64,000 bases of DNA from Chloroflexota bacterium (GTDB lineage Bacteria > Chloroflexota > Anaerolineae > Anaerolineales > DRMV01), in NCBI GenBank assembly GCA_011322445.1, contig DRMV01000041.1, forward strand, positions 62,001 to 126,000, given 5' to 3'. How positions within the stretch are numbered: position 1 is the stretch's first letter; the number at the start of each line of letters is the position of its first letter. The translations under genes and the position numbers were made by a program. The notes beneath the pieces were generated by a model. That model did not search any database. It was not told where the DNA came from and worked only from the letters and a program-made list of their open reading frames with translations. Below, piece after piece: positions 3,001-50,132 of the stretch.

Positions 3001-4305
3001 GTGCCGCTGGTGGTGGCGCAAGATGTGCTTGGCGCGTTGCTGCTTTTCCATTCACAACCTCATCACTTCACCGAATATCACCTCGACCTGGCCTCGGCGA
3101 CGGCCCGGCAAATTGCCGTTGCCATCAACAACGCCGAACTCTTCAACCTGATCCGTGAGCAGGCCGAGCGCCTGGGCAAACTGCTGCGCCAGCAGGAAGT
3201 GGAAGCCAGCCGCGCACGCGCCATCCTCGAGGCTATTGCCGACGGCGTGTTGGTGACCGACCGCAAGGGCACGATTACCCTTTTCAACCCCTCTGCCGAG
3301 CGCATCTTGGGGCTGCCGGCCGAGCAAACCCTCGACCGCCCCCTCGACCATTTCGTTGGCCTTTTTGGCAGCGCCGGCCGCCAATGGATGGAAACTATCC
3401 ATCACTGGTCGGCTGACCCCGAAAGTTACCGTGACCAGGATGTGGCCTACGAAGAACGCCTGGAGTTGGAAGACGGTCGGGTGATTTCGGTGCATCTGGC
3501 GCCGGTGTTCTTCCGCAGAGATTTCCTGGGCACGGTCTCAGTCTTCCGCGACATTACCCATCAGGTAGAAGTGGATCGCCTGAAGTCGGAGTTCGTGGCA
3601 ACGGTTTCCCACGAGTTGCGCACCCCCATGACGGCCATCAAAGGCTATGTGGATATTCTGCTCATGGGTGCGGCGGGGCCGCTTACCGACCAGCAGCGGC
3701 GCTTCTTGGAGACCGTCAAGAACAACACCGACCGCCTCAACCTGCTCGTCGGCGACCTGTTGGATATTTCCCGCATCGAGGCCGGGCGCGTCTCGCTGAT
3801 GCCCGAAGCGGTGGGCCTGGTTGCCTTGCTGCGCGACGTACTGGCTGAACAACAGCGGCGGGCTGCCGAGGAAGGCCGTGAAATGACCTTCACCGCTGAA
3901 ATCCCCGCCGATTTGCCGCCGGTGTATGGCGACCGGGAGCGCATTCGCCAGATTGCCGAAAACCTGGTCGAAAATGCCTACCGCTACACCCCTGATGGCG
4001 GCCATGTGTGGGTGCGGGCGCATCGGGAAGGCGATGAAGTGCAGATCGACGTGCAAGACACCGGCGTGGGGATTCCCCCCGAAGAGCAACCACGGGTGTT
4101 CGAGCGGTTCTACCGGGGTGAAAATTCCCTGGTGATGGCTTCTGCCGGCACCGGCCTGGGGCTGGCGATTGTCAAGACCCTGGTCGAAATGCACGGCGGG
4201 CGCATTTGGCTGGAAAGCACCGGTGTGCCCGGCGAGGGAAGCACCTTCTCGTTCACTTTACCGGTTTTTACCCCCGAGCACGAAGATTCCGCTGGAGAGG
4301 CTTGA
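1..4305 (+). CDS. Multi-GAF/PAS sensor histidine kinase, 5' partial
   Basis: The frame is open from the window edge, so the true start lies upstream; the GTG at 7 is only the first start-like codon (residues numbered from it). About six GAF-type domains follow each other (roughly 30-115, 185-340, 355-520, 535-690, 705-865, 890-1050). A PAS domain follows (about 1070-1185, with ILEAIADGVLVTD), then a HisKA dimerisation domain with H-box SHELRTP (His about 1202) and a HATPase domain with N box NLVENAYRYTPDGG, G1 DTGVGIP and G2 GTGLGLAIVK. No membrane segment is visible in this part, so it is probably a cytosolic sensor that phosphorylates the response regulator starting 3 bases after its stop. 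The signal cannot be told from sequence. Serial GAF kinases of this size are common in Chloroflexota and cyanobacteria. Confidence 0.93.
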   Translation, partial: ASVGFETLQPFRWDDLSLLLEDRFQRGGVYFIPREERPPLPASLALPRVSRPMPARADAQTWHPRDLLMVPLRTTQGEPLGLLYLDAPRDARRPDAPTQDILRLLAATAALLLEMQQLAVAWDAERQHLTGRVEEAEATARQAQNDIPRWLHKDLQQTLDRYALSRQAERLRISLEITTLLNRQPSHTSVLHALGRQLMERFGFNYVLIAEPTPFVPGGTEEGGVRLLHTFGELPPALKLDMLLGQRNPLAEVFHQKQVLVVPDIDRAAEWQRSPLLQRLQAQSFVAFPVLVEPQGGNGQAALVSHIVLATSTTPTPSFATQDEMIFSLLGRQVGIVLQNLDLLAHTSRRLQEVDLLLTFSRQLGVLDPERILQTLMESTLGALQHAHAGFIALWNPEREELQPQVAGGYADAEAMLAITFPKESLPVQVMLEGQARRIGELDFAAAYPLSPEALTAYRRATADRIPVSSMMVPIRAGERPLGVIVLDNFNATAAFTREDQSLVVSLAGQTALSLENAHLLHTAERRASQLHALANASAGLVARSLSLEEVEASLLEQLAAVLPYDGGTLWLREGNRLRVRDARGFPNADELIGITIAVEDSRLFQEMLASGKALAVEDTHADDRFPAPEAMPNRSWLGLPLRFKDEVLGVIALEKREPGFFTRDWVETAETFAGQAAAALGNARLYEEVRRHAEELDHRTRRLALVYEVTAELSASLDPTYIAEYTTRRLHEALAGRAVSFVLLEDETPTLLAAAPAPEGETLPQPWPAAPVFTHLAETLGVLADADVHADPRLAPLEDILARHAPKVTVVPLPAGQDLFGALFIHLPAQESLTSDEVELAQTLAKQAAVALQNARLYAASRRFTEELEARVAERTRQLQQEHHRAQTLLHIITELSASLDLDQVLNRTLDLLNEALSAEQSSILLKRADAPTLFLRAGRGYAEQPPLGGRPTDVSASDSLAGWVIEHNQPVLVPDLEKDPRWRKKPHGLPISHRSVIGVPLVVAQDVLGALLLFHSQPHHFTEYHLDLASATARQIAVAINNAELFNLIREQAERLGKLLRQQEVEASRARAILEAIADGVLVTDRKGTITLFNPSAERILGLPAEQTLDRPLDHFVGLFGSAGRQWMETIHHWSADPESYRDQDVAYEERLELEDGRVISVHLAPVFFRRDFLGTVSVFRDITHQVEVDRLKSEFVATVSHELRTPMTAIKGYVDILLMGAAGPLTDQQRRFLETVKNNTDRLNLLVGDLLDISRIEAGRVSLMPEAVGLVALLRDVLAEQQRRAAEEGREMTFTAEIPADLPPVYGDRERIRQIAENLVENAYRYTPDGGHVWVRAHREGDEVQIDVQDTGVGIPPEEQPRVFERFYRGENSLVMASAGTGLGLAIVKTLVEMHGGRIWLESTGVPGEGSTFSFTLPVFTPEHEDSAGEA

Positions 4306-6604: not shown

Positions 6605-8902
6605 TTAGCCGCGGTAGCCCAGCAACCGCAAGCCGTTGAGCACAACCAGCACGGTGCTGCCTTCGTGGCCCACGACGCCCCACGGCAGGGTGAGGCCCGC
6701 GCCAAAGGCCGAGGCCACCAGCAACACAATGACGCCCATCGCAAAGGTGAGGTTCTGCCACACCACCCGGCGGGCTTTGCGCGCCAGACCGATGGCGTAG
6801 GGCAAATGGTGGAGGTTGTCGGCCATCAGCACGACGTCGGCGGTTTCCAGGGCCACGTCGGTGCCGGCGCCGCCCATCGCAATGCCGACATCGGCTAATG
6901 CCAGCGCTGGCGCGTCGTTCACGCCGTCGCCCACCATCGCGGTGGGGCCGTATTGCTTTTGCAGGCGTTCCAGCACGCGCACTTTGTCTTTGGGCAGCAG
7001 TTCGGCGTAAAATTCGTCCACGCCCACCTTGGCAGCAATGGCCGCTGCCACTTGCTCGTTATCGCCGGTGAGCATGACCACATGCTTGACGCCCAGGTCG
7101 TGCAGTTTCTTGACCACATCCGCGGCCTCGGGGCGCAGCGAATCGGCCACGGCAATCATCCCCAGCCAGCGCCGTGTCTCGGGACGGTAGGCGATGACCA
7201 CGGTTTGCCCCTGGGCTTCCAGGGCGGTGATTTGCCCGGCCAGTGAGGCCGGCAGGGGCACCTCGCGCTCGTGGAACATGCGCACGTTGCCGACCCAAAG
7301 GGTAGCCCCTTCGACCGTCCCCTGCACGCCTTGCCCCACCACGGCGCGGAAATCGGCCGAAGGGGGGATTTCCAGGCCGCGTTGTTGGGCTGCATGCACC
7401 AGGGCGCGGGCGATGGGGTGTTCTGAGCGGGCTTCCAGCGCCGCGACCAGGCGCAGCAATTCGTCTTCGTTTATGCCCTCGGCCGGGTGCACGCCCTGCA
7501 CCTGGGGCTCGCCTACGGTCAGCGTGCCGGTTTTGTCGAAGGCGACCACTTCCAGCGTGGCGGTGCGTTCCAGGTGGGCGCCGCCTTTGAACAGCACCCC
7601 TTTGCGCGCCCCGTTGGCGATGGCCGAGAGAATGGTCGCGGGGGTGGAAATCACCAGTGCGCAGGGGGAAGCCACCACAAGCCATGTCATCGCCCGGTAA
7701 AAGGCGGTGTCGAAGGGTTCGTGGAATACCAGCGGCGGCACGGCGGTCAGCAAGACAGCGCCACCGAGCACAAACTTGGCATAGTTGCGCTCGAAGGTTT
7801 CCAGGGCGCGCTGGGTTTTGGCCTTGGCTTCCTGGGCTTCTTCCACCATTTGCACAATTTTCGCCAAGGTAGATTCCTGGGCCAGGTGGGTGACGCGCAC
7901 TTCAACCGTGCCGGTGGTGTTGACGGTGGCAGCGAAGACTTTGTCGCCCGGCTCTTTGAGCACCGGCACCGATTCGCCGGTGATGGGCGACTGGTCAACT
8001 TCGGTGGTGCCGGCCACCACTTCGCCATCGATGGGGAAGCGTTCGCCCGGCCGCACCATGACGATATCGCCCAGGCGCAGTTGCTCGACGGGCAGGGTTT
8101 CCCAGCCTTTTTCGGTTTTGACCGTGGCGGTGGGGGGGCGCAGGTCCATCAGGCTTTCGATGGCGCGGCGGGTGCGCCCGAGCGCGTAAGATTGCAAGGT
8201 GTTGGAAAGCGAGAAGAGGAAGAGCAGCACCGCGCCGTCAGCGGGCTGGCCTGCCAGCGCGGCCCCTAAGGCCGCCACGACCATCAGCAGGTCGACGTCG
8301 ATTTCTCGCTCGGTAATCAGCAGTTCGATGCCCTCGATAGAACCGAAGTAGCCGCCTGCGGCGTAGGCGAGGACGAACAGCGCGGTGGAAACCCACGGCG
8401 GCGCGGCCAGGTGGTTGGCTGCCAGCGCCCCTAACAGCGCAACCAGGGTGGTAATGGTCAGCACGGTTTCCCACGTCAGTTTGCTCCAGCCGCGACGGGC
8501 AGGGGCGGGCTGAGGCGGCGGCGTGATTTCGGCTTCCACCACCGCCGTGAGCGGTGCGTGGCGGGGCAGGCGTGCCACCAGGGTGCCGTCGTCTTGCAGC
8601 ACCACTTTGGGCGGCTGACCAAAAAATTGGGCCAGATCTTTGGCTAAGTGGGCCGCGCAATCGTTGCAGGTCTTGGTTCCAGCGAGGGGGCAGTGCTGCA
8701 CGCGCGCCCATGCTCGGTGGGCGGCTTCTTGCGCGATTTCCTGCGCCTGGGCGTCTTCCAGCAGGCGCGGGTCGTAGGTAATTTGCAGGCGGGCGTGTTC
8801 GTAGTCCAGACGGGTTTCCAACACGCCGTCGTAGCCGATGAGGGTATCGCCGACGATGTCGGTACAACGTCCGTTAGGGAATTGGGGGTCGTGAGTGCTC
8901 AT
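6605..8902 (-). CDS. P1B-type heavy-metal-transporting ATPase (SPC type, P1B-4-like)
   Basis: 765 aa from the ATG at 8902, which overlaps the Fur-family gene by ATGA; an upstream in-frame extension is rejected. A Cys-containing soluble N-terminus (CPLAGTKTC, CNDC) is followed by membrane helices, the actuator motif TGES, the transmembrane metal motif SPC in VVASPCALVIS (about 410), the phosphorylation motif DKTGT (D456), HP in SEHPIARAL, and GDGVNDAPAL. It ends with HEGSTVLVVLNGLRLL. SPC together with HEGxT is the signature of P1B-4 pumps, known to export Co2+, Zn2+ or Fe2+. Its coupling to a PerR-like regulator makes Fe2+ export (as in PfeT) attractive, but this is inference. Confidence 0.93.
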   Translation of the reverse strand: MSTHDPQFPNGRCTDIVGDTLIGYDGVLETRLDYEHARLQITYDPRLLEDAQAQEIAQEAAHRAWARVQHCPLAGTKTCNDCAAHLAKDLAQFFGQPPKVVLQDDGTLVARLPRHAPLTAVVEAEITPPPQPAPARRGWSKLTWETVLTITTLVALLGALAANHLAAPPWVSTALFVLAYAAGGYFGSIEGIELLITEREIDVDLLMVVAALGAALAGQPADGAVLLFLFSLSNTLQSYALGRTRRAIESLMDLRPPTATVKTEKGWETLPVEQLRLGDIVMVRPGERFPIDGEVVAGTTEVDQSPITGESVPVLKEPGDKVFAATVNTTGTVEVRVTHLAQESTLAKIVQMVEEAQEAKAKTQRALETFERNYAKFVLGGAVLLTAVPPLVFHEPFDTAFYRAMTWLVVASPCALVISTPATILSAIANGARKGVLFKGGAHLERTATLEVVAFDKTGTLTVGEPQVQGVHPAEGINEDELLRLVAALEARSEHPIARALVHAAQQRGLEIPPSADFRAVVGQGVQGTVEGATLWVGNVRMFHEREVPLPASLAGQITALEAQGQTVVIAYRPETRRWLGMIAVADSLRPEAADVVKKLHDLGVKHVVMLTGDNEQVAAAIAAKVGVDEFYAELLPKDKVRVLERLQKQYGPTAMVGDGVNDAPALALADVGIAMGGAGTDVALETADVVLMADNLHHLPYAIGLARKARRVVWQNLTFAMGVIVLLVASAFGAGLTLPWGVVGHEGSTVLVVLNGLRLLGYRG

Positions 8903-36299: not shown

Positions 36300-39200
36300 T
36301 TGGCCGAAAAAAGCGCCAGCAAGGCAACCCGCTTGCAACAGATGCTGATGTTGCTGTTGGAGTATCCCGAGGGTCTCAGCCGCGCCGAGGTCGCCCGGCG
36401 GCTGGGCGTGCACCGTTCCACCGTGGGGCGCTATGTGGAAGACCTCTCGCAACTCGGCATCCCCATTTGGGAAGACGAGCGCCGCATTGGCATCCTGCGC
36501 GACCGCTATCAAGTGCGCATTAGCGTGAACATGCACGAGGCTTTGGCGCTGCACTTGGCCACGCGCCTGCTCACCACCCGCACTGACAAACACTACCCCC
36601 ACGCCGCCAGCGCGCTGCGCAAACTGGGCGAGGCATTGAAGCACCTGGCGCCTCTGATCAGCGAGCACATGATGCGCTCGGCGGCAGTGCTGGAAGGCCC
36701 CCATCGCCGCCACGACAGTGCGTTTTTGGAAGTGCTGGAAGCCCTGACCCGCGCCTGGTCGCGCGGCGAAAAGGTCAAAGTCACCCATGAGATGGAAGAC
36801 GGCCAGACCTTCGCCTACAAGTTTGCCCCCTATTTCATCGAGCCGTATGCCGTAGGCCGCACCATGCACGTCATCGGCTTCCGCGAGCCGCCGGGGGCCA
36901 TCCGCACTTTCAAGATTGAGCGCATTCGCACCGTGCGACCTTTGGGCGAAAAATACACCATCCCGCCGGACTTCGACCCCACCGAGTACCTCAAAGACGC
37001 CTGGGGCATCTGGGTATCGGAGAAAGCGCCGACCGAGATCGTGCTCCGCTTCAGCCCGCGGGTCGCCAAACGGGTGGGCGAGACGCTGTGGCATCACACC
37101 CAGGTGCTGGAACCCCAGCCCGATGGCGCGCTCGTCTGGCGGGCGTGGGTGGCCGACTGGCGTGAAATGCTCCCCTGGATTCGCGGCTGGGGGGCGGATG
37201 TGGAAGCACTGGCGCCCGAGGCGTTAAGGAAAAGGTTGCAGCAGGAGGTAGGCAAGTTGGCGAATTTGTATGGAATCTTAATTGAGCGAACACTTCCTCA
37301 ATTCATTGCACATACAAGAAATGAACAAGGTCAATATCATGATCTGGTGAAGCATTTGCTAAACGTAGCAAAATTAGCGTCCGCGTTTGCTGCAAACCTC
37401 CAAGCGGCAGATGTGGCCTATTACTTGGGTTTGTGGCATGACTTAGGCAAATTTCACCCAGATTTTCAGCGTTATTTATGGGATGCAGATGCTGGGATTA
37501 AGCGTAAAGGGCCTGATCATAAAGCCGCAGGCGCGCGGGTTGCTGTTAAGCATCTCGGGGACTTTTTGGGCATGTTGATACAGGGACACCACGGCGGTTT
37601 GCAGTCTCCCAGTGATTTTAGATCTTGGTATGAGCGAAATAAAGGTGCAGCAGAACAATCTTTAACGGTCGCAAGAACAGTGTTGGACTTTGAACCAACC
37701 AGTCCGATTTCTTTTCCTCAACATGTATTGAGAAATCACCGTAATGGGGAGAAAAATCGTCGGAGTGGGGAGTTCTTTGCCCGCATGTTATTTTCATCTC
37801 TGGTAGATGCTGATTTTTTGGATACAGAAGCGCACTTTAAACCGGCAAAAGCGAGGCAACGGGGTAATTGGGCTGATATTTCAGATCTGTGGGAGCGTTT
37901 TCAGAAAGATCAGCAACGGTTGGTAAAGAAAGCGAATCAGGCATTAAAAATCAACCGGATCCGATCTGAGATTTACGAAGAGGCCAAAAAGGCCGCCGAA
38001 TACCCTCCCGGTTTGTTTCGTTTGACGGTGCCCACTGGCGGGGGAAAAACGCGTTCGGCAATGGGGTTTGCCCTGCGCCATGCTGTTAAACATGGTCAGA
38101 ATCGTATCATTGTCGTTGTACCATATATAACGATTACGCAGCAGACGGCGAATACATATAGGGAAATTTTTGAAGTGGCTGGCGAAGATGGAATTGTTGT
38201 TCTAGAGCATCATAGCAACATATTCAGGAATGGAACAATCCCCGAAACTTGGCGATTGGCATCGGAAAATTGGGATGCTCCCATTATAGTGACGACAACA
38301 GTGCAGTTTTTTGAAAGCCTGTTTGCGAATAGCACAAGCCAGACTCGCAAATTACATCGCATTGCAAATAGCGTGGTGATTTTGGATGAAGCCCAATCCT
38401 TGCCCCCTCACTTATTAGAGCCGATGCTGGATGCTATTCAAGAGTTGTGTACACATTATCACACTACGGTCGTATTGTCGACCGCCACGCAACCCGCTTT
38501 TGAGGTCTTTGCTCCTTTCCGCAGCCTGGTGCAGGAATTGAACGCCCGAGAAATTGTTCCAAACTCTGAACGATATTTTCACGAATTGAAACGTGTTGAA
38601 TTTGAGTGGCATTTGAAACGGCCTTTGTCATGGGAGCAGGTGGCTGACATTATGCGAATGGAACGCCATTCGTTGGCAATCTGCAATACAAAAGATGATG
38701 CACTGGCCTTGTTGGATGCGCTAGACGACCCGAACGCGTTGCACCTTTCCACACGGCTTTGCGGAAAACACCGGGATGCCGTCATCAATGAGATTTTAAA
38801 CCGCTTACGTGAAGGGCAGCCTTGTCGTGTGGTTGCGACTCAAGTGGTTGAATCTGGTGTAGATATAGATTTTCCGTTAGTATTGCGCGCTTTAGGCCCT
38901 CTGGATGGCATTATTCAGGCTGCTGGGCGCGCAAATCGCGAAGGGAAGCGGCACAGAGGACGAGTCGTTGTCTTCGAGCCAGAGCAAGGCCATTTGCCAC
39001 GGGGTGTTTACAGGCAAGCGGTTGAGATCACACGCATGTTGTTGAAGGAATTGCCGGATATTTACAGTCCAGAGGCTATCCATGCATACTTTTCATCTTT
39101 GTATAAACTCGCTCAACAAGATCATAATGCTTTGGGGAAAACCATTCAGCAATACCGTGAGAATTGGGATTTCCCCGAGGTTGCCCGCCGTTTTCGGCTG

Positions 39201-39518
39201 ATACCAGACGATACGGTAAATGTGGTGATCACCTCATATGGGAGTGAGAAAGAACAGGCAGAAGTCCGCTCTATTTTGAGCGCTTTATATGCGGGCGCGC
39301 CACTTACACGCGAGAGAATGCGCGCTTTGCAGCCTTATTTGGTCACTTTGCCACGCTATCGGGCAGCAACATGTTTGCACGCCGGGCTCTTGATGCCTCA
39401 AACATCAGAAGGATTTGGAGGGCAAATGTGGGAATGGAAGGGAAATTATGATGAGCGTCGAGGCATTGTATTAAGTGACTGTGAACCTGGCGAAGGAAAA
39501 GCGGTGATCTTCTCTTGA
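36300..39518 (+). CDS. cas3: WYL-domain regulator fused to Cas3 nuclease-helicase (type I-C)
   Basis: 1072 aa, TTG start at 36300 supported by AAAGGAGGG just upstream. Residues about 8-62 are a winged HTH (LSRAEVARRLGVHRSTVGRYV), about 140-220 a WYL domain, about 230-325 the WCX-type tail ending LQQEVGKLANLYG, where free-standing WYL regulators normally stop. Cas3 begins at once (PQFIAHTRNEQGQYHDLVKHL): HD nuclease with H380-D381 in LWHDLGKFHPDFQ, HH in QGHHGG, Walker A VPTGGGKTRSA (about 575-585), DEAQ box (about 696), STAT motif, and QVVESGVDIDF with QAAGRANREGK. Base composition changes from GC-rich to AT-richer at about 37225 (residue 309), near the seam. It probably both cuts foreign DNA and senses a ligand or controls cas expression. 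Confidence 0.93.
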   Translation: MAEKSASKATRLQQMLMLLLEYPEGLSRAEVARRLGVHRSTVGRYVEDLSQLGIPIWEDERRIGILRDRYQVRISVNMHEALALHLATRLLTTRTDKHYPHAASALRKLGEALKHLAPLISEHMMRSAAVLEGPHRRHDSAFLEVLEALTRAWSRGEKVKVTHEMEDGQTFAYKFAPYFIEPYAVGRTMHVIGFREPPGAIRTFKIERIRTVRPLGEKYTIPPDFDPTEYLKDAWGIWVSEKAPTEIVLRFSPRVAKRVGETLWHHTQVLEPQPDGALVWRAWVADWREMLPWIRGWGADVEALAPEALRKRLQQEVGKLANLYGILIERTLPQFIAHTRNEQGQYHDLVKHLLNVAKLASAFAANLQAADVAYYLGLWHDLGKFHPDFQRYLWDADAGIKRKGPDHKAAGARVAVKHLGDFLGMLIQGHHGGLQSPSDFRSWYERNKGAAEQSLTVARTVLDFEPTSPISFPQHVLRNHRNGEKNRRSGEFFARMLFSSLVDADFLDTEAHFKPAKARQRGNWADISDLWERFQKDQQRLVKKANQALKINRIRSEIYEEAKKAAEYPPGLFRLTVPTGGGKTRSAMGFALRHAVKHGQNRIIVVVPYITITQQTANTYREIFEVAGEDGIVVLEHHSNIFRNGTIPETWRLASENWDAPIIVTTTVQFFESLFANSTSQTRKLHRIANSVVILDEAQSLPPHLLEPMLDAIQELCTHYHTTVVLSTATQPAFEVFAPFRSLVQELNAREIVPNSERYFHELKRVEFEWHLKRPLSWEQVADIMRMERHSLAICNTKDDALALLDALDDPNALHLSTRLCGKHRDAVINEILNRLREGQPCRVVATQVVESGVDIDFPLVLRALGPLDGIIQAAGRANREGKRHRGRVVVFEPEQGHLPRGVYRQAVEITRMLLKELPDIYSPEAIHAYFSSLYKLAQQDHNALGKTIQQYRENWDFPEVARRFRLIPDDTVNVVITSYGSEKEQAEVRSILSALYAGAPLTRERMRALQPYLVTLPRYRAATCLHAGLLMPQTSEGFGGQMWEWKGNYDERRGIVLSDCEPGEGKAVIFS

Positions 39519-39543
39519 CGTTTTCCTCGCTGCGTGCTATGAT
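39515..39543 (+). promoter_or_regulatory. Strong promoter overlapping the cas3 stop
   Basis: -35 TTGACG (39515-39520), 17 bases, extended -10 TGCTATGAT with hexamer TATGAT at 39538-39543. This is the best consensus match in the cas operon. The predicted start is G39550, the first base of the repeat-like element. It allows the cascade genes to be transcribed independently of cas3. Confidence 0.75.
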
Positions 39544-39549
39544 ACTTTT

Positions 39550-39593
39550 GTCTTTCCATTACCAACCAATCACATGGAAAGTGGATTGAAATC
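39550..39593 (+). promoter_or_regulatory. Diverged CRISPR-repeat-like stem-loop in the cas5c leader
   Basis: Layout 5'-GT, arm CTTTCCAT (39552-39559), 14-base loop, arm ATGGAAAG (39574-39581), then TGGATTGAAA (39582-39591) and TC. The array repeat is GT, CGCTCCCC, 5-base loop, GGGGAGCG, TGGATTGAAAC. Four of eight stem positions differ but all are compensated on the other arm, while the 3' handle is kept for 10 of 11 bases. Cas5c is the repeat-cutting enzyme in type I-C and leaves an 11-base handle, so this RNA could be recognised by it. What follows (from 39593) is a pseudo-spacer running into the cas5c ribosome-binding site. Confidence 0.6.
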
Positions 39594-39634
39594 ATGTTAT
39601 CGGCTGGTACATCTCAAGAAAGGAGGGCGGCTCT

Positions 39635-40288
39635 ATGTCCCAAAGTGATGATTTTCCCTTATTGAGCGTGCGGGTGTGGGGTCACTATGCCTGCTTTACC
39701 CGCCCCGAAATGAAGGCAGAGCGTGTTACTTATCCGGTGCCCCCCCCATCTGCGGCCCGCGGAATTTTGGAGGCTATTTTCTGGAAACCGGAATTCGTGT
39801 GGCGGGTGAGAGAAATTTGGGTGCTCAAACCAATTCGGTATTTCTCGATTCTGCGCAATGAAGTGAACGAACCTGCTAGTCATCGCGCTGCAAGGTCTTG
39901 GGTGGGGAGCCATAAAGGGTACGTTGCCCAATTTCATCGTGCTCAACGCCACACACTGGCATTGCGAGACGTAGAATACATTATTCGAGCCCGCATTGAT
40001 GTGAAGCCTTATGTTGACGCGAACCCGGCCAAATATGTTGCTCAATTTAAACGCCGGTTACGCCGTGGGGCGTGTTTCCATCGCCCTTATTTGGGCACGC
40101 GCGAGTTCGCAGCATATTTCTCTGAACCCATGGGGGATGAGCAGCCCATTGATCTTAGCATGGAGATCGGGCGCATGCTCTACGATTTGGACTACAAAGA
40201 TGACGGGCGCGGTACCCCTCGTTTTTTCTCTGCTCGTTTGGAAAGGGGGATACTGCGCGTCCCTGTGTTGTCTTCGGAGGGAGTTTAG
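39635..40288 (+). CDS. cas5c: Cas5c (Cas5d), type I-C crRNA endonuclease and Cascade subunit
   Basis: 217 aa, start chosen by AAAGGAGGG 7 bases upstream. N-terminal RAMP ferredoxin-like fold with LLSVRVWGHYACFTRPEMKAERVTYPVPPPSAARGILEAIFWKPEFVW, the conserved opening of Cas5d, and a second part with TREFAAYF and DLDYKDDGRGTPRFFSARLERG. In type I-C no Cas6 is present and Cas5 cuts the repeats, leaving an 11-base 5' handle; this locus likewise lacks cas6. The stop directly abuts the cas8c ATG. AT-richer than cas4-cas1-cas2. Confidence 0.95.
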   Translation: MSQSDDFPLLSVRVWGHYACFTRPEMKAERVTYPVPPPSAARGILEAIFWKPEFVWRVREIWVLKPIRYFSILRNEVNEPASHRAARSWVGSHKGYVAQFHRAQRHTLALRDVEYIIRARIDVKPYVDANPAKYVAQFKRRLRRGACFHRPYLGTREFAAYFSEPMGDEQPIDLSMEIGRMLYDLDYKDDGRGTPRFFSARLERGILRVPVLSSEGV

Positions 40289-41965
40289 ATGTTATTGCAA
40301 CAGCTCATTGAACTGGCGTCTCGATTGGAACAACAAGGCAATTTGGCCCCGCCCGTGCATCGCAATAAGGGGGTGCGCTATATGTTGAGCCTGGATAGCC
40401 AGGGCCGGTTGCGAAATCCTCACCCCATAGATTTAACTAAGGAAGACGGGACGTTGCCTCGTTGGATTTTGCCGGATACAGTGAAGGCCTCGGGCATTAA
40501 GCCTATCTTGTTGGCCGACAACGCAGAATATACCTTAGGTATCGGACGGTCTGAATCCAAACCGGAGCGAGTACGCAAGTGCCACGCCGCTTATCTGAGC
40601 CTGATTAGAGATTGTGCTGACCATACGCAAGAGCCGGCGGTCATGGCGGTGCTTCAATTTCTTGAAAATGACCCTCTGCAGCATCTTGTTTTACCTGATA
40701 ATTTCGATGCCGGCGGCATCATTGTGTTTGAAGTCGATGGAAAACTGGTGCATGAGATCACTGCTGTGCGCGATTTTTGGATTGAGCACAATATGCCTAG
40801 GGGCAACGTTATGGAGTGCATTGCGTGTGGAGAGCGTAAGCCTGTTTTGCCTAGACTCAAGGGAAAAATCAAAGGGATCCCTGGAGGGCAAAGTTCAGGT
40901 ACATCGCTTATTTCTGCCAACAAAACCGCATTCGAGTCTTATGGGCTTAAGAATTCCTTGATTGCTCCCATTTGCTTTGAGTGCAGTGAGCGCTTCACGA
41001 AAGCGTTGAATTTCTTGCTGGCAAATGATAAACATCATTTGGTCTTTGGACAGAAGTTGGTATTTGTGTTTTGGACGAGAGACCCCGTAGAGTGGAACCC
41101 TCTTTCCTTTTTGCAACGTCCCGATCCTCAAGATGTACAAAATCTACTGGACGCATCACAACGTCCCAGCAAATGGAATCCCAATTTGGATACTACGTCG
41201 TTTTACGCTGCTTCTCTCTCGGCTAGCGGAGGGCGCGCCGTCATTCGCGATTGGATTGATACGACGGTTGGCGAGGTGAAAGAACATTTGCGCCAATGGT
41301 TTGCTGCTCAAGCCATGGTAAATGCACACGGCGATTTATCTCAGCCTTTAAGCATTTATGCTTTGGCTGGAGCCACGGCTATGGATTTAGGCAAGGTAAC
41401 CACTTCGACTTACCAGACGTTGTTGCGGGCCAGTTTAATGGGGTCTCCATTACCCTGGAATCTATTGCAACAGGCTGTTAGGCGGAATGTGAGTGAACGG
41501 CGTGTAACGCATGCTCGCGCCGCTTTAATTAAACTCGTTTTTGTCACCCGTAACCTAATCAAGGAGGATGATATGTCGCAATTGGAAACTCCCCCTCCCG
41601 AGTTTTCTCTGGCTTATCATTGTGGCCGTTTGCTTGCAGTGTTGGAGAATATTCAATACGAAGCACTGGGTAAAACAAACACCACTATCGTCGATCGTGC
41701 TTATGGTGGCGCTTCTACATCCCCCGCGTATGTATTTGGGCGCTTACTCACCCGAGCCCAAAGCCATCTTTCCAAACTCCGTCGCCAGAAAAAATCGGCG
41801 TATGTTTTTGCGCAAAACGAACTGAGTGATGTGTTATCACACATCACTGTATTCCCGACCACACTGACCATGCAGGAGCAGGGCTTCTTCGCTCTTGGTT
41901 ACTACCACCAGCGCGCCCGCAAATGGCAACGTATTAGCGAACGTTCGACTGCCAATGAACAATGA
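40289..41965 (+). CDS. cas8c: Cas8c (Csd1), type I-C large subunit
   Basis: 558 aa, usual size for Csd1. N-terminal LLQQLIELASRLEQQGNLAPPVHRNKGVRYMLSLDSQGRL, PRWILPDTVKASGIKPILLADNAEYTLGI, and a zinc-type region with CIACGERKP followed by CFECSERF. GTSLISANKTAFESYGLKN is a strongly conserved Csd1 segment. The protein recognises the PAM and helps hold the target in Cascade. The C-terminal about 130 residues (from M429) are also made separately as Cas11c (next entry). Starts immediately after the cas5c stop. Confidence 0.95.
   Translation: MLLQQLIELASRLEQQGNLAPPVHRNKGVRYMLSLDSQGRLRNPHPIDLTKEDGTLPRWILPDTVKASGIKPILLADNAEYTLGIGRSESKPERVRKCHAAYLSLIRDCADHTQEPAVMAVLQFLENDPLQHLVLPDNFDAGGIIVFEVDGKLVHEITAVRDFWIEHNMPRGNVMECIACGERKPVLPRLKGKIKGIPGGQSSGTSLISANKTAFESYGLKNSLIAPICFECSERFTKALNFLLANDKHHLVFGQKLVFVFWTRDPVEWNPLSFLQRPDPQDVQNLLDASQRPSKWNPNLDTTSFYAASLSASGGRAVIRDWIDTTVGEVKEHLRQWFAAQAMVNAHGDLSQPLSIYALAGATAMDLGKVTTSTYQTLLRASLMGSPLPWNLLQQAVRRNVSERRVTHARAALIKLVFVTRNLIKEDDMSQLETPPPEFSLAYHCGRLLAVLENIQYEALGKTNTTIVDRAYGGASTSPAYVFGRLLTRAQSHLSKLRRQKKSAYVFAQNELSDVLSHITVFPTTLTMQEQGFFALGYYHQRARKWQRISERSTANEQ
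41573..41965 (+). CDS. cas11c: Cas11c small subunit from an internal start in cas8c
   Basis: 130 aa, same frame as cas8c (M429). A consensus ribosome-binding site AAGGAGG sits at 41561-41567, 5 bases before the ATG at 41573, inside the cas8c reading frame, a place where no such site is otherwise expected. The product (MSQLETPPPEFSLAYHCGRL...) is mostly alpha-helical and of Cas11 size. Internal translation of Cas11 from cas8 is established for several type I systems including I-C; this is the same arrangement, seen directly. Confidence 0.88.
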   Translation: MSQLETPPPEFSLAYHCGRLLAVLENIQYEALGKTNTTIVDRAYGGASTSPAYVFGRLLTRAQSHLSKLRRQKKSAYVFAQNELSDVLSHITVFPTTLTMQEQGFFALGYYHQRARKWQRISERSTANEQ

Positions 41966-42011: not shown

Positions 42012-42920
42012 ATGTCAACAAAATCTTATCTCGATGTCAACCGTCGCCATGACTTTGTGCTGTTCTTTGATGTACAAGATGGCAACCCAAACGGCGATCC
42101 TGATGCGGATAATATGCCTCGCGTCGATCCGGAGACGATGCAAGGGCTTGTAACCGATGTTTCCATAAAGCGCCGTGTTAGAGACTGGGTTGACGCCATA
42201 CGCGGTTCAGAGGAAAAATACAAAATCTATGTACAAAGTGGCGAAGCATTGATCACTAAACACAAGCGAGCATATACGGCGCTGGGGCTTGAATCTACTG
42301 GTTCAAAGCAAGCCCGGGAAGACGTTGAAAAAGCCCGCCGGTGGATGTGTGAAAACTTCTATGACATTCGTGCTTTTGGCGCGGTAATGACGGTCGGCGT
42401 AAATTGCGGACAAGTGCGCGGCCCGATTCAACTAACGTTTGCCCGTTCCATTCATCCTATTGCCCCGCTGGATATTTCCATTACACGCGTCGCAGTTACG
42501 AAGGAAGAGGACTTGGTGGCAGTGACGGAAGATGGCAAAACAAAAGGCAAGGTAAGCGAAATGGGACGAAAGCCTATCTTGCCGTACGGGTTGTACCGTG
42601 CACATGGTTTTTTCAATCCCTACTTTGCCAGGCAGACAGGTTTTACATCAGAAGACTTGGAACTGTTTTGGAACGCTTTGCAAAACATGTGGGATTTCGA
42701 CCGCTCTTCCTCTCGCGGTTTGATGGCTTTCCGCGGCCTTTATATTTTCTCCCATGAGAAAATGCTGGGGAATGCGCCCGCTCATAAATTATTCGATTTG
42801 GTTCACGTCTCGCTTGTTGAAGATAAAGACGTTGCCGTGCCGCGCAAATTCTCGGACTATATCATCACCGTTGACCATCCCAATCTTCCCCCCGGCGTTG
42901 AACTGACCGAGATACTCTGA
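42012..42920 (+). CDS. cas7c: Cas7c (Csd2), type I-C backbone subunit
   Basis: 302 aa, GAGGAGG upstream of the ATG. HDFVLFFDVQDGNPNGDPDADNMPRVDPETMQGLVTDVSIKRRVRDWV is the Csd2 signature, RAFGAVMTVGVNCGQVRGPIQLTFARSIHPI follows, and DRSSSRGLMAFRGLYIFSHE lies near the end. Multiple copies line the crRNA spacer in Cascade. Last gene of the AT-richer effector block; a strong hairpin follows its stop. Confidence 0.95.
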   Translation: MSTKSYLDVNRRHDFVLFFDVQDGNPNGDPDADNMPRVDPETMQGLVTDVSIKRRVRDWVDAIRGSEEKYKIYVQSGEALITKHKRAYTALGLESTGSKQAREDVEKARRWMCENFYDIRAFGAVMTVGVNCGQVRGPIQLTFARSIHPIAPLDISITRVAVTKEEDLVAVTEDGKTKGKVSEMGRKPILPYGLYRAHGFFNPYFARQTGFTSEDLELFWNALQNMWDFDRSSSRGLMAFRGLYIFSHEKMLGNAPAHKLFDLVHVSLVEDKDVAVPRKFSDYIITVDHPNLPPGVELTEIL

Positions 42921-45145: not shown

Positions 45146-48100
45146 GTCGCTCCCCCTCGCGGGGAGCGTGGATTGAAACTGCCTATTTGGGCATAACCTG
45201 GCAGAAATTGGCAAGTCGCTCCCCCTCGCGGGGAGCGTGGATTGAAACCCGTGCGCTCCCATATTCCCGATAGTTGAAATTATGTCGCTCCCCCTCGCGG
45301 GGAGCGTGGATTGAAACGGGCCGTGAACTGGAAAAACCAGCGGGGCCGGAAGGTCGCTCCCCCTCGCGGGGAGCGTGGATTGAAACCTTGTAAGGTAATT
45401 GTAAAGTACGAAATTTTCAGTCGCTCCCCCTCGCGGGGAGCGTGGATTGAAACTTCTCCATTTTTATGCCTCCTTATATCTCAACATAGTCGCTCCCCCT
45501 CGCGGGGAGCGTGGATTGAAACTGCCAGGTTATGCCTGAATGAGCAGAAGTAGGGCTGTCGCTCCCCCTCGCGGGGAGCGTGGATTGAAACGCTTTTGTG
45601 GCGTTTATCGCCCTGGTGTTTGTGCGTCGCTCCCCCTCGCGGGGAGCGTGGATTGAAACTTAGGGAAATTGTTAAAGATTTCCATGAGGATAAGTCGCTC
45701 CCCCTCGCGGGGAGCGTGGATTGAAACCTCGAAGCCTTGAAAAATGCCAATGTTATCGCTTGTCGCTCCCCCTCGCGGGGAGCGTGGATTGAAACCTCGA
45801 AGCCCTGAAGAAGGCCGAAAGCATTGAGTAGTCGCTCCCCCTCGCGGGGAGCGTGGATTGAAACTCTCCTTTGGTGGTGGGTGGTGGAATGAGGAAAGCG
45901 TCGCTCCCCCTCGCGGGGAGCGTGGATTGAAACATCGCCGCCCAATGAGGGCGGGTAGAACGCAGTCGGTCGCTCCCCCTCGCGGGGAGCGTGGATTGAA
46001 ACCGTCCAAAACACCCAACCGCCGAAACTCGTCTTACGTCGCTCCCCCTCGCGGGGAGCGTGGATTGAAACGCCGCTCGCAAGGCGGATTTTCAAAACCT
46101 CGCTTGTCGCTCCCCCTCGCGGGGAGCGTGGATTGAAACTAAAATCTGCGATAACTTCGCCACTATCCGTATCATGTCGCTCCCCCTCGCGGGGAGCGTG
46201 GATTGAAACAAGGCCACATTGTCGGGCGACATGCCACGCAGGGCGTCGCTCCCCCTCGCGGGGAGCGTGGATTGAAACAATGCCAATTGCGCCGATGGTT
46301 CGCGAGGCCACCTGTCGCTCCCCCTCGCGGGGAGCGTGGATTGAAACAGTTTGATGTCGGTCACCGCGCTCCTGACATCAGCGTGTCGCTCCCCCTCGCG
46401 GGGAGCGTGGATTGAAACGGGCATAGAGCGCCCAACTATTTTTTAAGCGTCTAAGTCGCTCCCCCTCGCGGGGAGCGTGGATTGAAACTATATACCGTTT
46501 TTGCCAATTTTTGACAATCTCCGGTCGCTCCCCCTCGCGGGGAGCGTGGATTGAAACGCTGGCGAAACGGCGACGGTGGTCGAAGCGGTCATGGTCGCTC
46601 CCCCTCGCGGGGAGCGTGGATTGAAACACCTTCCATATTACCCCGGGTGACGCCTATATCTCGTCGCTCCCCCTCGCGGGGAGCGTGGATTGAAACGGGT
46701 TCTTTTCGGCAATGCAGCGGAGCTAACACCGTCGCTCCCCCTCGCGGGGAGCGTGGATTGAAACCTTGTAATTACCAGACAAGAAATGATTCTGGATAGT
46801 CGCTCCCCCTCGCGGGGAGCGTGGATTGAAACCGGTCGGTTGGCTGGAAAAATCAGCGTGGGCGGAAGTCGCTCCCCCTCGCGGGGAGCGTGGATTGAAA
46901 CGTTGTAGTGTTTTTCGCAGTAATAAACGCCATTATGTCGCTCCCCCTCGCGGGGAGCGTGGATTGAAACAGCGGCCTGCTGATGATAGGCTTGCAGGTG
47001 GGGCGTCGCTCCCCCTCGCGGGGAGCGTGGATTGAAACACATAATTCCCGCTTGTAGATACTCTGTATTGCCAGTCGCTCCCCCTCGCGGGGAGCGTGGA
47101 TTGAAACGCGGTAGTAGCACACTAACCACCTATTCCCAATCTGTCGCTCCCCCTCGCGGGGAGCGTGGATTGAAACGAGCCACCACCTGGAAAAATCAGC
47201 GTGGGCGGAAAGTCGCTCCCCCTCGCGGGGAGCGTGGATTGAAACCATATTACCTCACCACAATCATGTATGCTCCAGATGTCGCTCCCCCTCGCGGGGA
47301 GCGTGGATTGAAACCTCCAAGCTGCCTACTGCAAGCAGCATGTGAAGAGTCGCTCCCCCTCGCGGGGAGCGTGGATTGAAACCTCGCATGCGAGAAAATA
47401 TGAACGCACAAAAGCGGTCGCTCCCCCTCGCGGGGAGCGTGGATTGAAACCCGCAATCCATACGGGAACCGTACCCGTTCCCTGTGTCGCTCCCCCTCGC
47501 GGGGAGCGTGGATTGAAACAGCGCCCATCGCGCGCGCCCACCAGGTCGTAGCACGGGTCGCTCCCCCTCGCGGGGAGCGTGGATTGAAACTTGGGCGCGA
47601 GATGTGACCGAGTTGGAGCAGTTTGTCGCTCCCCCTCGCGGGGAGCGTGGATTGAAACCTCGCCCTCCGGCGGATACCACTCCAAATCCAACGTCGCTCC
47701 CCCTCGCGGGGAGCGTGGATTGAAACCCTGCAAGTGAATGGCAAAGACCAACCTCAGCCGTCGCTCCCCCTCGCGGGGAGCGTGGATTGAAACCGAGAGA
47801 AAATTGAAGAATTATAAGAAAAACCCAAAAGTCGCTCCCCCTCGCGGGGAGCGTGGATTGAAACAATATAGTCATCAATATTATCTACGATAATGCACGT
47901 CGCTCCCCCTCGCGGGGAGCGTGGATTGAAACACTTCCAACCTGTAAATTTTAATTCCTGAGTATTGTCGCTCCCCCTCGCGGGGAGCGTGGATTGAAAC
48001 GCCAGCGAAACCGCCCCGATTGTGGACGCAGTGTTGGTCGCTCCCCCTCGCGGGGAGCGTGGATTGAAACCCGTATTTTGCCGCCTGCCAACTGCGCGGG

Positions 48101-50132
48101 CCAGGTCGCTCCCCCTCGCGGGGAGCGTGGATTGAAACTGGTGAGACCTCGAAGGCTTGACGAAAGGCTTCTGTCGCTCCCCCTCGCGGGGAGCGTGGAT
48201 TGAAACCGCTCAGGTTGAGGAGCGCTGCACCAAGAGCGTCGTCGCTCCCCCTCGCGGGGAGCGTGGATTGAAACACCCCCGGCACGTACGAAAACACCAG
48301 CGACAGGGTCGCTCCCCCTCGCGGGGAGCGTGGATTGAAACTGGATAGCATGCGTCTTGATGTACTCGCGATCCTGTCGCTCCCCCTCGCGGGGAGCGTG
48401 GATTGAAACAGTTCAGCAGGCGGCGTGTAGTACCGCTCCATCACGTCGCTCCCCCTCGCGGGGAGCGTGGATTGAAACTGGGGTGGTGTATTGGTTGTCG
48501 GCGCGGGCGGTGGTGGTCGCTCCCCCTCGCGGGGAGCGTGGATTGAAACAATTGGATTGTTTTGTTGCTCGGACATGATTCCCTCGTCGCTCCCCCTCGC
48601 GGGGAGCGTGGATTGAAACCCCCGCAATGGCGGCCCAAGCGTTCGCCCGCGAAGTCGCTCCCCCTCGCGGGGAGCGTGGATTGAAACACCTTCGACGTCC
48701 GCTGGGTGGACGGCGAATACATGTCGCTCCCCCTCGCGGGGAGCGTGGATTGAAACATGCTGACGCAGCGGCGGAATTGCGGGCGGCGTTAGTCGCTCCC
48801 CCTCGCGGGGAGCGTGGATTGAAACTGAGAAAACTGACGCCAAGCGCCGTCTGGCGACGTGTCGCTCCCCCTCGCGGGGAGCGTGGATTGAAACGGGGCT
48901 CCTGCTGCGGTGCGTCATCTGGCGGCACCGTCGCTCCCCCTCGCGGGGAGCGTGGATTGAAACGAATTGGAGGCCGAGGAAACCTACCTGCGCATGATGT
49001 CGCTCCCCCTCGCGGGGAGCGTGGATTGAAACGATGCTGCGCTGGCGAGGCGAGATGAGGCGCTGGCGAGTCGCTCCCCCTCGCGGGGAGCGTGGATTGA
49101 AACGTTGCTCAAATTGGTTTGCGTAATCCTCGCCGAGTCGCTCCCCCTCGCGGGGAGCGTGGATTGAAACATCTGCCACGCAAACCAAAAACGCTAATAC
49201 TCCAGTCGCTCCCCCTCGCGGGGAGCGTGGATTGAAACGGCGTTCCGGCGGGCAGCGTTCCCACCGGCATTGGCGGTCGCTCCCCCTCGCGGGGAGCGTG
49301 GATTGAAACCCATCCGCTCCCTGGGGTTGCGTCATGTATAGATGTCGCTCCCCCTCGCGGGGAGCGTGGATTGAAACTATTTGTTTTCAACACTCTTGAC
49401 AAGAGTTGAAAGTCGCTCCCCCTCGCGGGGAGCGTGGATTGAAACCAATCTTCACAAAGGGAGTTGACCAATGTCACAATGTCGCTCCCCCTCGCGGGGA
49501 GCGTGGATTGAAACTGGCCTGGGCAGTGACCGCCCCTCAGCGTGCTAACTGTCGCTCCCCCTCGCGGGGAGCGTGGATTGAAACGTCGACCTGGGGAATG
49601 TATTGCCGGGAATACCAGTCGCTCCCCCTCGCGGGGAGCGTGGATTGAAACTCGTGCCCGCTCCACTTTATGCCCTCTCTTTGCGTGTCGCTCCCCCTCG
49701 CGGGGAGCGTGGATTGAAACCTGCTGAGGGTTTGGTTAGCAACGGTGCTGGCACATGTCGCTCCCCCTCGCGGGGAGCGTGGATTGAAACAACCGCACCC
49801 AAAACGCACCGCCGCCGCCCAGCGGGTCGCTCCCCCTCGCGGGGAGCGTGGATTGAAACGGGTTCGTGGCCGGGCGTGGCGGGGCATGTTGACGTCGCTC
49901 CCCCTCGCGGGGAGCGTGGATTGAAACCTCCCTCGCGGCGGGCGAAGTGGCACAGGTTGAGGTCGCTCCCCCTCGCGGGGAGCGTGGATTGAAACACGCC
50001 CGGTCGTTGACGAATTATAGATCGTAGCCGGTCGCTCCCCTCGCGGGGAGCGTGGATTGAAACGCCTCGGTGTACTCCTTCACCACATAGAGCGCCTTGT
50101 CGCTCCCCCTCGCGGGGAGCGTGGATTGAAGA
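45146..50132 (+). CRISPR. Type I-C CRISPR array, 73 repeats and 72 spacers
   Basis: Counted by hand: 73 copies of a 34-base repeat (GTCGCTCCCC...TGGATTGAAAC; stem CGCTCCCC/GGGGAGCG, 5-base loop) with spacers of 33-37 bases. The first 71 repeats look identical. Repeat 72 (50031-50063) has lost one C, and repeat 73 (50099-50132) ends in GA instead of AC, marking the old, distal end; the new end faces cas2. Repeat size and handle are those of type I-C. Several spacers are in-register relatives of each other (see findings). On the minus strand the repeats contain no stop, giving long false reading frames rich in SIHAPREGER-like motifs. Confidence 0.99.

Follow-up and report, generated by a model that had tools for sequence, protein, structure and literature searches.

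A complete type I-C CRISPR-Cas locus was found to carry, in the gap between cas3 and cas5c, a single degenerate CRISPR repeat preceded by a promoter-like sequence and followed by a guide that partly matches the DNA of the repeat's own loop. We propose that this element works in the manner of a CreR, as an autorepressor of the Cascade operon cas5c-cas8c-cas7c, and that it does so in a compact form, having only one repeat and carrying the operator within that pseudo-repeat. This reading was derived from sequence comparisons, and we put its probability at about three in four (0.76). The CRISPR complex would then probably use a guide to switch down its own production, a predicted feedback loop seen in several related I-C loci. 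A preliminary description of the same DNA had regarded the element either as a Cas5c-processed guide or as a repeat mimic in the cas5c mRNA; taken as a whole, that description was partly supported.

The Type I-C Locus

The window analyzed is a stretch of 64,000 nucleotides and is part of contig C41 of a 2.63-Mb draft genome. It contains cas3, cas5c, cas8c, cas7c, cas4, cas1, a cas2-like frame and a CRISPR array. The window features given with coordinates are on the forward strand unless stated otherwise. The cas3 gene (36300-39518) is a single fused frame of 1072 amino acids, in which HTH-WYL-WCX transcription-regulator domains are joined in frame to the HD-Cas3 N-terminus. Deinococcus radiophilus pRadio2 (L118) has a separate WYL gene with a 4-nt overlap with the cas3 start, and cas3 frames of like length, compared by length alone, were seen in G355, G377, G1094, G1095 and Allomeiothermus silvanus. 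The gap between cas3 and cas5c is 116 bp. The cas5c gene (39635-40288), which encodes the pre-crRNA processing nuclease, heads the putatively controlled operon and is followed by cas8c/csd1 (40289-41965) and cas7c/csd2 (42012-42920). The nearest relatives of the window Cas5c were found in Chloroflexota genomes, e.g., Anaerolinea sp.

The cognate array (about 45146-50130) has 73 copies of the repeat GTCGCTCCCCCTCGCGGGGAGCGTGGATTGAAAC, laid out as GT, CGCTCCCC, CTCGC, GGGGAGCG and TGGATTGAAAC. No array spacer was found to match the window, and a search with the array spacers for the system's own PAM gave no credible phage protospacer. The spacers at 45318 and 47177 are identical at 26 of 35 positions, a resemblance that acquisition from equivalent sites in related phages would produce.

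A Putative Promoter and a Degenerate Repeat Between cas3 and cas5c

The sigma-70-type promoter (TTGACG, 17 bases, TATGAT) claimed between cas3 and cas5c is present as a consensus match at 39515-39543, both by direct reading and in a promoter scan, where it scored 10 of 12 (three sites on both strands vs. 0.4 expected). The -35 box TTGACG (39515-39520) overlaps the cas3 stop codon (39516-39518) and is separated by the 17-base spacer from an extended -10 box, TGC-TATGAT, with the hexamer at 39538-39543. The promoter sequence predicts a transcription start at about 39550.

The degenerate repeat occupies 39550-39592 and is laid out like the array repeat. It consists of GT and a left arm CTTTCCAT (39552-39559), a loop of 14 nt (39560-39573), a right arm ATGGAAAG (39574-39581) and a handle TGGATTGAAAT (39582-39592) that is identical to the array-repeat handle in 10 of 11 positions. 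The geometry of the array repeat had been claimed for this element, and this holds for the GT, the 8-bp stem and the handle but not for the loop, which is not 5 nt. Direct comparison with the array repeat confirmed that stem pairs 2, 3, 7, and 8 are changed and that all four changes are compensated. The compensated pairs are in favor of a selected RNA stem, as had been suggested, while the minimum-energy calculation favors another fold. For the 43-nt element, the repeat-like stem was at -6.7 kcal/mol vs. -8.6 kcal/mol for the minimum-energy fold, and with the leader included the values were -13.4 and -17.3 kcal/mol, respectively. The reason is that the loop has better pairing partners in the guide or the handle, so that another structure is favored over the repeat-like stem.

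A canonical array has at least two near-identical repeats, whereas the window element has just one, which is degenerate and lies some 5.5 kb away from the array. No second handle-like sequence was found within one spacer length downstream of it, and no second repeat marks the 3' end of the guide. The element gave no match in an Rfam search, even at E=1, and viral contigs yielded no relative.

The Guide Matches the Element's Own Loop

The matching part of the guide, CATGTTATCGGCTGGTA, lies at 39593-39609. The predicted operator, CATGTGATTGGTTGGTA, lies at 39560-39576 on the reverse strand, i.e., on the opposite strand of the element's own loop, and is flanked by the PAM TTC (39577-39579; GAA on the forward strand). 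Guide and operator agree in 14 of 17 positions, with mismatches at positions 6, 9, and 12 only. TTC is the experimentally confirmed PAM of the Xanthomonas I-C system (PMC8406640). In Class 1 complexes each sixth guide base is flipped out (PMC11127173); positions 6 and 12 were for this reason deemed tolerant and left uncounted in our target score. With this 6/12-aware score, the element itself was the top site for the guide in the 11 kb around the locus. Its score of 12.5 with TTC was not equaled in any of 4000 dinucleotide shuffles of the surrounding region, whether any PAM or none was required. No other site in the 2.63-Mb genome was as close as the operator to the criterion of one mismatch or none apart from positions 6 and 12, which the operator alone satisfied, and a search for a second target elsewhere gave just one hit with three mismatches, which is at chance level. 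When every position was scored and the PAM was not counted, the window match was modest (p=0.008).

The pseudo-spacer had been proposed to start at 39593, as the guide part of a Cas5c-processed RNA. This option was strengthened by the PAM-flanked partial match and by the same plan in independent loci. A match near a cas promoter had also been envisaged; the PAM-flanked match was indeed found, but at the element's own promoter and leader and not at a distant cas promoter.

Recurrence in Related Loci

Cas5c loci were gathered from about 1,950 genome look-ups and the surrounding DNA was retrieved. Among 40 related loci with a measurable gap, the cas3-cas5c gaps contained five strict handles in 5,005 bp, whereas the cas coding DNA on either side, 194,864 bp in all, contained two (Poisson p ~3e-9). 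The density in gaps is thus about 100 times that of coding DNA.

Four further Chloroflexota loci of this first set were found to have a promoter-like sequence, a degenerate repeat, a handle and a guide, all in the cas3-cas5c gap, and in each of them the guide matches the DNA immediately preceding the handle. In G405 (L057) the target is on the minus strand (PAM TTC, mismatches 3, 6, and 12). It is on the plus strand in the other three, lying in the loop in G883 (L097; PAM TTG, mismatch 6) and across the right arm in G893 (L100; PAM TTT, mismatches 6, 9, and 12), while G913 (L101), with the handle GGGATTGCAAC, has the PAM GTG and mismatches at 2 and 6. The G893 match surfaces only under the 6/12-aware score.

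Ten more loci were fetched as a hold-out once the pattern had been formulated. In one of these, G1095 (L156), TTGACA at the cas3 stop is accompanied by a pseudo-repeat, the handle AGGATTGAAAC and the guide TATTTCGTGGATGTACA, and its loop holds TTT-TATTTAGTGGATGTACA, which agrees with its own guide in 16 of 17 positions, the mismatch being at position 6 alone. G1095 carries tandem handles 90 and 59 nt before the cas5c match, with the guide in two versions, TATTTCGTGGATGTACA and the shortened TATTTCGTATGTACACA. Tandem handles with versions of one guide suggest local duplication as the origin of such guides.

Two more loci have the guide upstream of cas3 and its target nearby. G446 (L061) has a mini-array of three degenerate repeats (about 2200-2620), and the last guide matches the cas3-proximal region, in the stretch that separates this guide from cas3 and 204 bp past the handle (PAM CTC, mismatches at exactly 6 and 12). 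As judged from its sequence, this layout is classic CreR-like, in type I-C. For the perfect handle before cas5c in the same locus no target was detected. In G383 (L064) a full repeat lies upstream of cas3, with a target 319 bp upstream of the handle (PAM TTA, mismatches 6, 12, and 15). The matches are in direct orientation in G883, G893, G913 and G1095, all in the gap, and in G446 and G383, upstream of cas3.

The guides of these loci bear no relation to one another in sequence, and still the self-match persists; it has therefore been retained, or has formed anew, independently. In the window, G405, G883, G893 and Tistrella the handle follows the -35 box at a distance of 67-77 nt, and in G913 at 99 nt, a spacing by which the predicted transcript would begin close to the first bases of the pseudo-repeat.

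The Tistrella element was the only one found in a survey of plasmid I-C loci (1 of 22). It is located in the cas3-cas5c gap of Tistrella mobilis pTM3 (L124, 8775-8900) and has a TTGACG promoter-like sequence, a stem and the handle TGGGTTGAAAC. Its guide has a TTC-flanked match on the minus strand, upstream of the promoter, with mismatches at 3, 6, 12, and 15. This 6/12-aware match is weak, since its score of 9.5 was equaled by about 2% of shuffled guides and the all-position scan prefers another site. The copy is thus plausible but weaker; the strain that carries it, Tistrella mobilis KA081020-065, is a named one with a complete record.

Overall, the element is patchy: about 7 of 50 clade loci had a gap handle, or a near-handle plus a self-match. 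It was absent from most I-C loci, the closest Cas5c relatives among them (L010, 67%; G259, 68%), and likewise from distant ones (43-49%). Handle and stem had been expected to be retained wherever cas5c is retained, and this expectation failed, as they are lost in most orthologues. The patchiness makes it less likely that the element serves an essential function of Cas5c, but a regulatory accessory could well be distributed in this way. None of the same-genus genomes was found to have cas5c, so that there were no close orthologues for covariation.

More solitary or paired degenerate I-C repeats were seen in the cas loci of G271 (L053, about 2740-2880), G316 (L051, about 3320-3400), G312 (L054, reverse strand, about 8300-8440) and G1006 (L115, 4072 nt after the start of the cas5c match). 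G271 and G316 show partial conservation of the guide that follows the last repeat. A local target search found none for the pseudo-repeats of these four loci. Mini-arrays of two or three repeats elsewhere in the locus are present in G271, G312 and G446.

Mismatch Positions and PAMs

With positions 6 and 12 ignored, 7 of 17 pseudo-repeats scored at least 10, compared to three to four when any other pair of positions six apart was ignored. Among shuffled guides, 1 of 1020 reached 10.5 or more. As a scan that is blind to positions 6 and 12 favors mismatches there, it was repeated with all positions scored. G883, G913, G446 and G1095 then exceeded every one of 2,250 shuffled guides (p<1/2250). These four loci have six mismatches in positions 1-15, five of which are at position 6 or 12 (binomial p 2e-4). 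A pooled Fisher test (mismatches 13/16 vs. 5/104) was replaced by this all-position analysis, because ignoring positions 6 and 12 in the scan had inflated its value.

Guide position 6 was mismatched in all eight loci, i.e., the window (39598), G405, G883, G893, G913, G1095, G446 and G383, with a guide C opposite an operator A in four of them. A neutral flipped base should match in a quarter of cases, and selection may therefore maintain the mismatch, e.g., to avoid Cas3 attack or primed adaptation. All eight loci have T at PAM position -2. Outside the window the PAMs were mostly not TTC (TTG, TTT, TTT, GTG, TTA, and CTC), although a weak PAM would fit with binding that does not proceed to cleavage.

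A Model for Autorepression of the Cascade Operon

From the promoter-like sequence, the pseudo-repeat, the guide-operator-PAM match and the recurrence with unrelated guides, all of which were computed, we infer transcription, Cas5c cutting, Cascade loading, repression and competition with crRNAs. The promoter at 39515-39543 would give rise to a cas5c mRNA with the pseudo-repeat at its 5' start. Cas5c would recognize the pseudo-repeat and cut at the stem base to leave the 11-nt handle UGGAUUGAAAU followed by the guide, beginning with CAUGUUAUCGGCUGGUA. In Cascade, this guide would bind the operator, which corresponds to about +11 to +27 of the predicted cas5c transcript and thus closely follows the start site from which the guide itself is transcribed. 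Counted from the PAM, a full Cascade footprint would extend upstream roughly as far as the -10 box, and transcription would be blocked. Repression would lift once Cascade is taken up by array crRNAs or by anti-CRISPRs.

Type I-C killing in Xanthomonas requires a match of at least 27 nt (PMC8406640), and in an I-B system matches of at most 26 nt repress without cleavage (PMC10551041). Since the match described here ends at 17 nt, far below the ~27 nt for Cas3 attack, repression rather than cleavage is expected.

Repression may be reinforced in cis, through cutting of the leader and assembly of Cascade over the Shine-Dalgarno-like sequence AAGGAGG of cas5c (39620-39626). Such effects are likely because a cut at the stem base would remove the 5' leader and because a guide of 34 nt would reach and overrun this sequence. 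It is possible, although somewhat short of probable, that one RNA serves as mRNA leader, pre-guide and source of the operator, that cis and trans repression are in this way linked in I-C, and that such elements arose more than once, through local duplications that copied the operator as a direct or an inverted repeat. The cis arm would consist in loss of the leader and the ribosome binding site, and the trans arm in a promoter block by guide-directed Cascade at the DNA encoding the loop.

Weighing the Alternatives

The element could act in cis only, as a repeat mimic through which Cas5c binds or cuts its own mRNA leader and lowers its own translation, the downstream sequence being no guide. 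The location in the cas5c 5' UTR, the array-like GT, stem and handle with all stem changes compensated, and the role of Cas5d in processing pre-crRNA in I-C (PMC11127173) agree with this. We nevertheless consider it unlikely, as it leaves unexplained the PAM-flanked self-match, its recurrence with unrelated sequences and the mismatches at positions 6 and 12, and as G405, G893 and G446 have kept the handle although their stems are poor. Binding or cutting of the leader by Cas5c would rather be a likely side effect under the guide reading.

In the window the two matching segments (39560-39576 and 39593-39609, 17 nt) are inverted and are paired in the minimum-energy fold of the leader, and the adjoining cas3 carries an HTH-WYL domain. 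The inverted repeat might accordingly be an RNA hairpin (an attenuator or ribosome binding site switch) or a palindromic operator for WYL, with the handle a coincidence. We find this very unlikely: neither form is possible with the direct repeats of G883, G893, G913, G1095, G446 and G383, the 85-nt leader folds no better than its shuffles (z=0.58), and a coincidental handle does not agree with the excess of strict handles in gaps. As the match is direct in most loci, an RNA hairpin was excluded as a general explanation. Least probable of all, in our judgment, is a decayed relic of an old array or a misplaced repeat with no present function. The patchy distribution, the degenerate repeat and the lack of cas5c in same-genus genomes would fit a relic, but the perfectly compensated stem, the kept guide-operator match with its PAM and a promoter positioned, in several loci, so that the predicted transcript begins at the pseudo-repeat would not.

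Relation to Known Systems

CreRs autorepress I-B, I-E, and V-A systems (PMC13131331, PMC12737573). They resemble the proposed autorepressor in being crRNA-like RNAs with a degenerate repeat and their own promoter, encoded near cas genes, and in a predicted autorepression that is relieved by crRNAs or anti-CRISPRs. As in a CreR, the window element has by its sequence a degenerate repeat that the nuclease could recognize (GT, compensated stem, and handle 10/11), a putative promoter of its own, and a guide partly complementary to a cas promoter region beside a PAM (TTC). The second repeat of a mini-CRISPR, common among CreRs but deemed unnecessary, is missing. The window element further differs in belonging to subtype I-C, in its lone pseudo-repeat, in that the guide doubles as leader of the very mRNA to be repressed, in the operator lying in its own loop just past the start site, and in the processing nuclease being the first gene of the operon. 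Shmakov et al. (2023; doi 10.1093/nar/gkad495) are reported to have predicted standalone-repeat crRNA-like elements in the cas loci of type I and V-A systems, the spacers of which show partial complementarity to cas promoters. The I-C cas3-cas5c elements with a self-contained operator may already be among those predictions, which would make them a known member.

CreA of CreTA/CrePA is a crRNA-like RNA that by partial complementarity directs Cascade to repress a promoter. Here the gene repressed would be cas5c and not a toxin; no toxin target of the CreTA/CrePA kind was found, and apart from the leader of the element itself the genome has no near-perfect target. Racrs such as RacrIC1 are phage- or plasmid-borne inhibitors consisting of a solitary repeat unit outside an array (PMC10651486). 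RacrIC1 is likewise a solitary type I-C repeat unit, whereas the window element sits in the host cas operon between cas3 and cas5c, has a self-matching guide and does not qualify as a Racr. A type II-A natural single guide RNA is mentioned in a passage of PMC10651486 as autoregulating Cas9 (Workman et al., 2021, cited therein). It is alike in that a natural guide uses the effector to repress the effector's own expression, and unlike in being based on Cas9 and tracrRNA, with unrelated parts.

If the proposed autorepression is true, type I-C, a common and compact system with Cas5c processing, would sense free Cascade through a single-repeat guide that silences its own operon, and anti-CRISPRs or an excess of crRNAs would be predicted to raise the levels of Cas5c, Cas8c and Cas7. 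A handle together with a self-match that has sixth-base mismatches is offered as a rule for finding such elements. Type I-C would thereby join the systems with RNA-guided autorepression, in a minimal version whose operator is contained in the pseudo-repeat.
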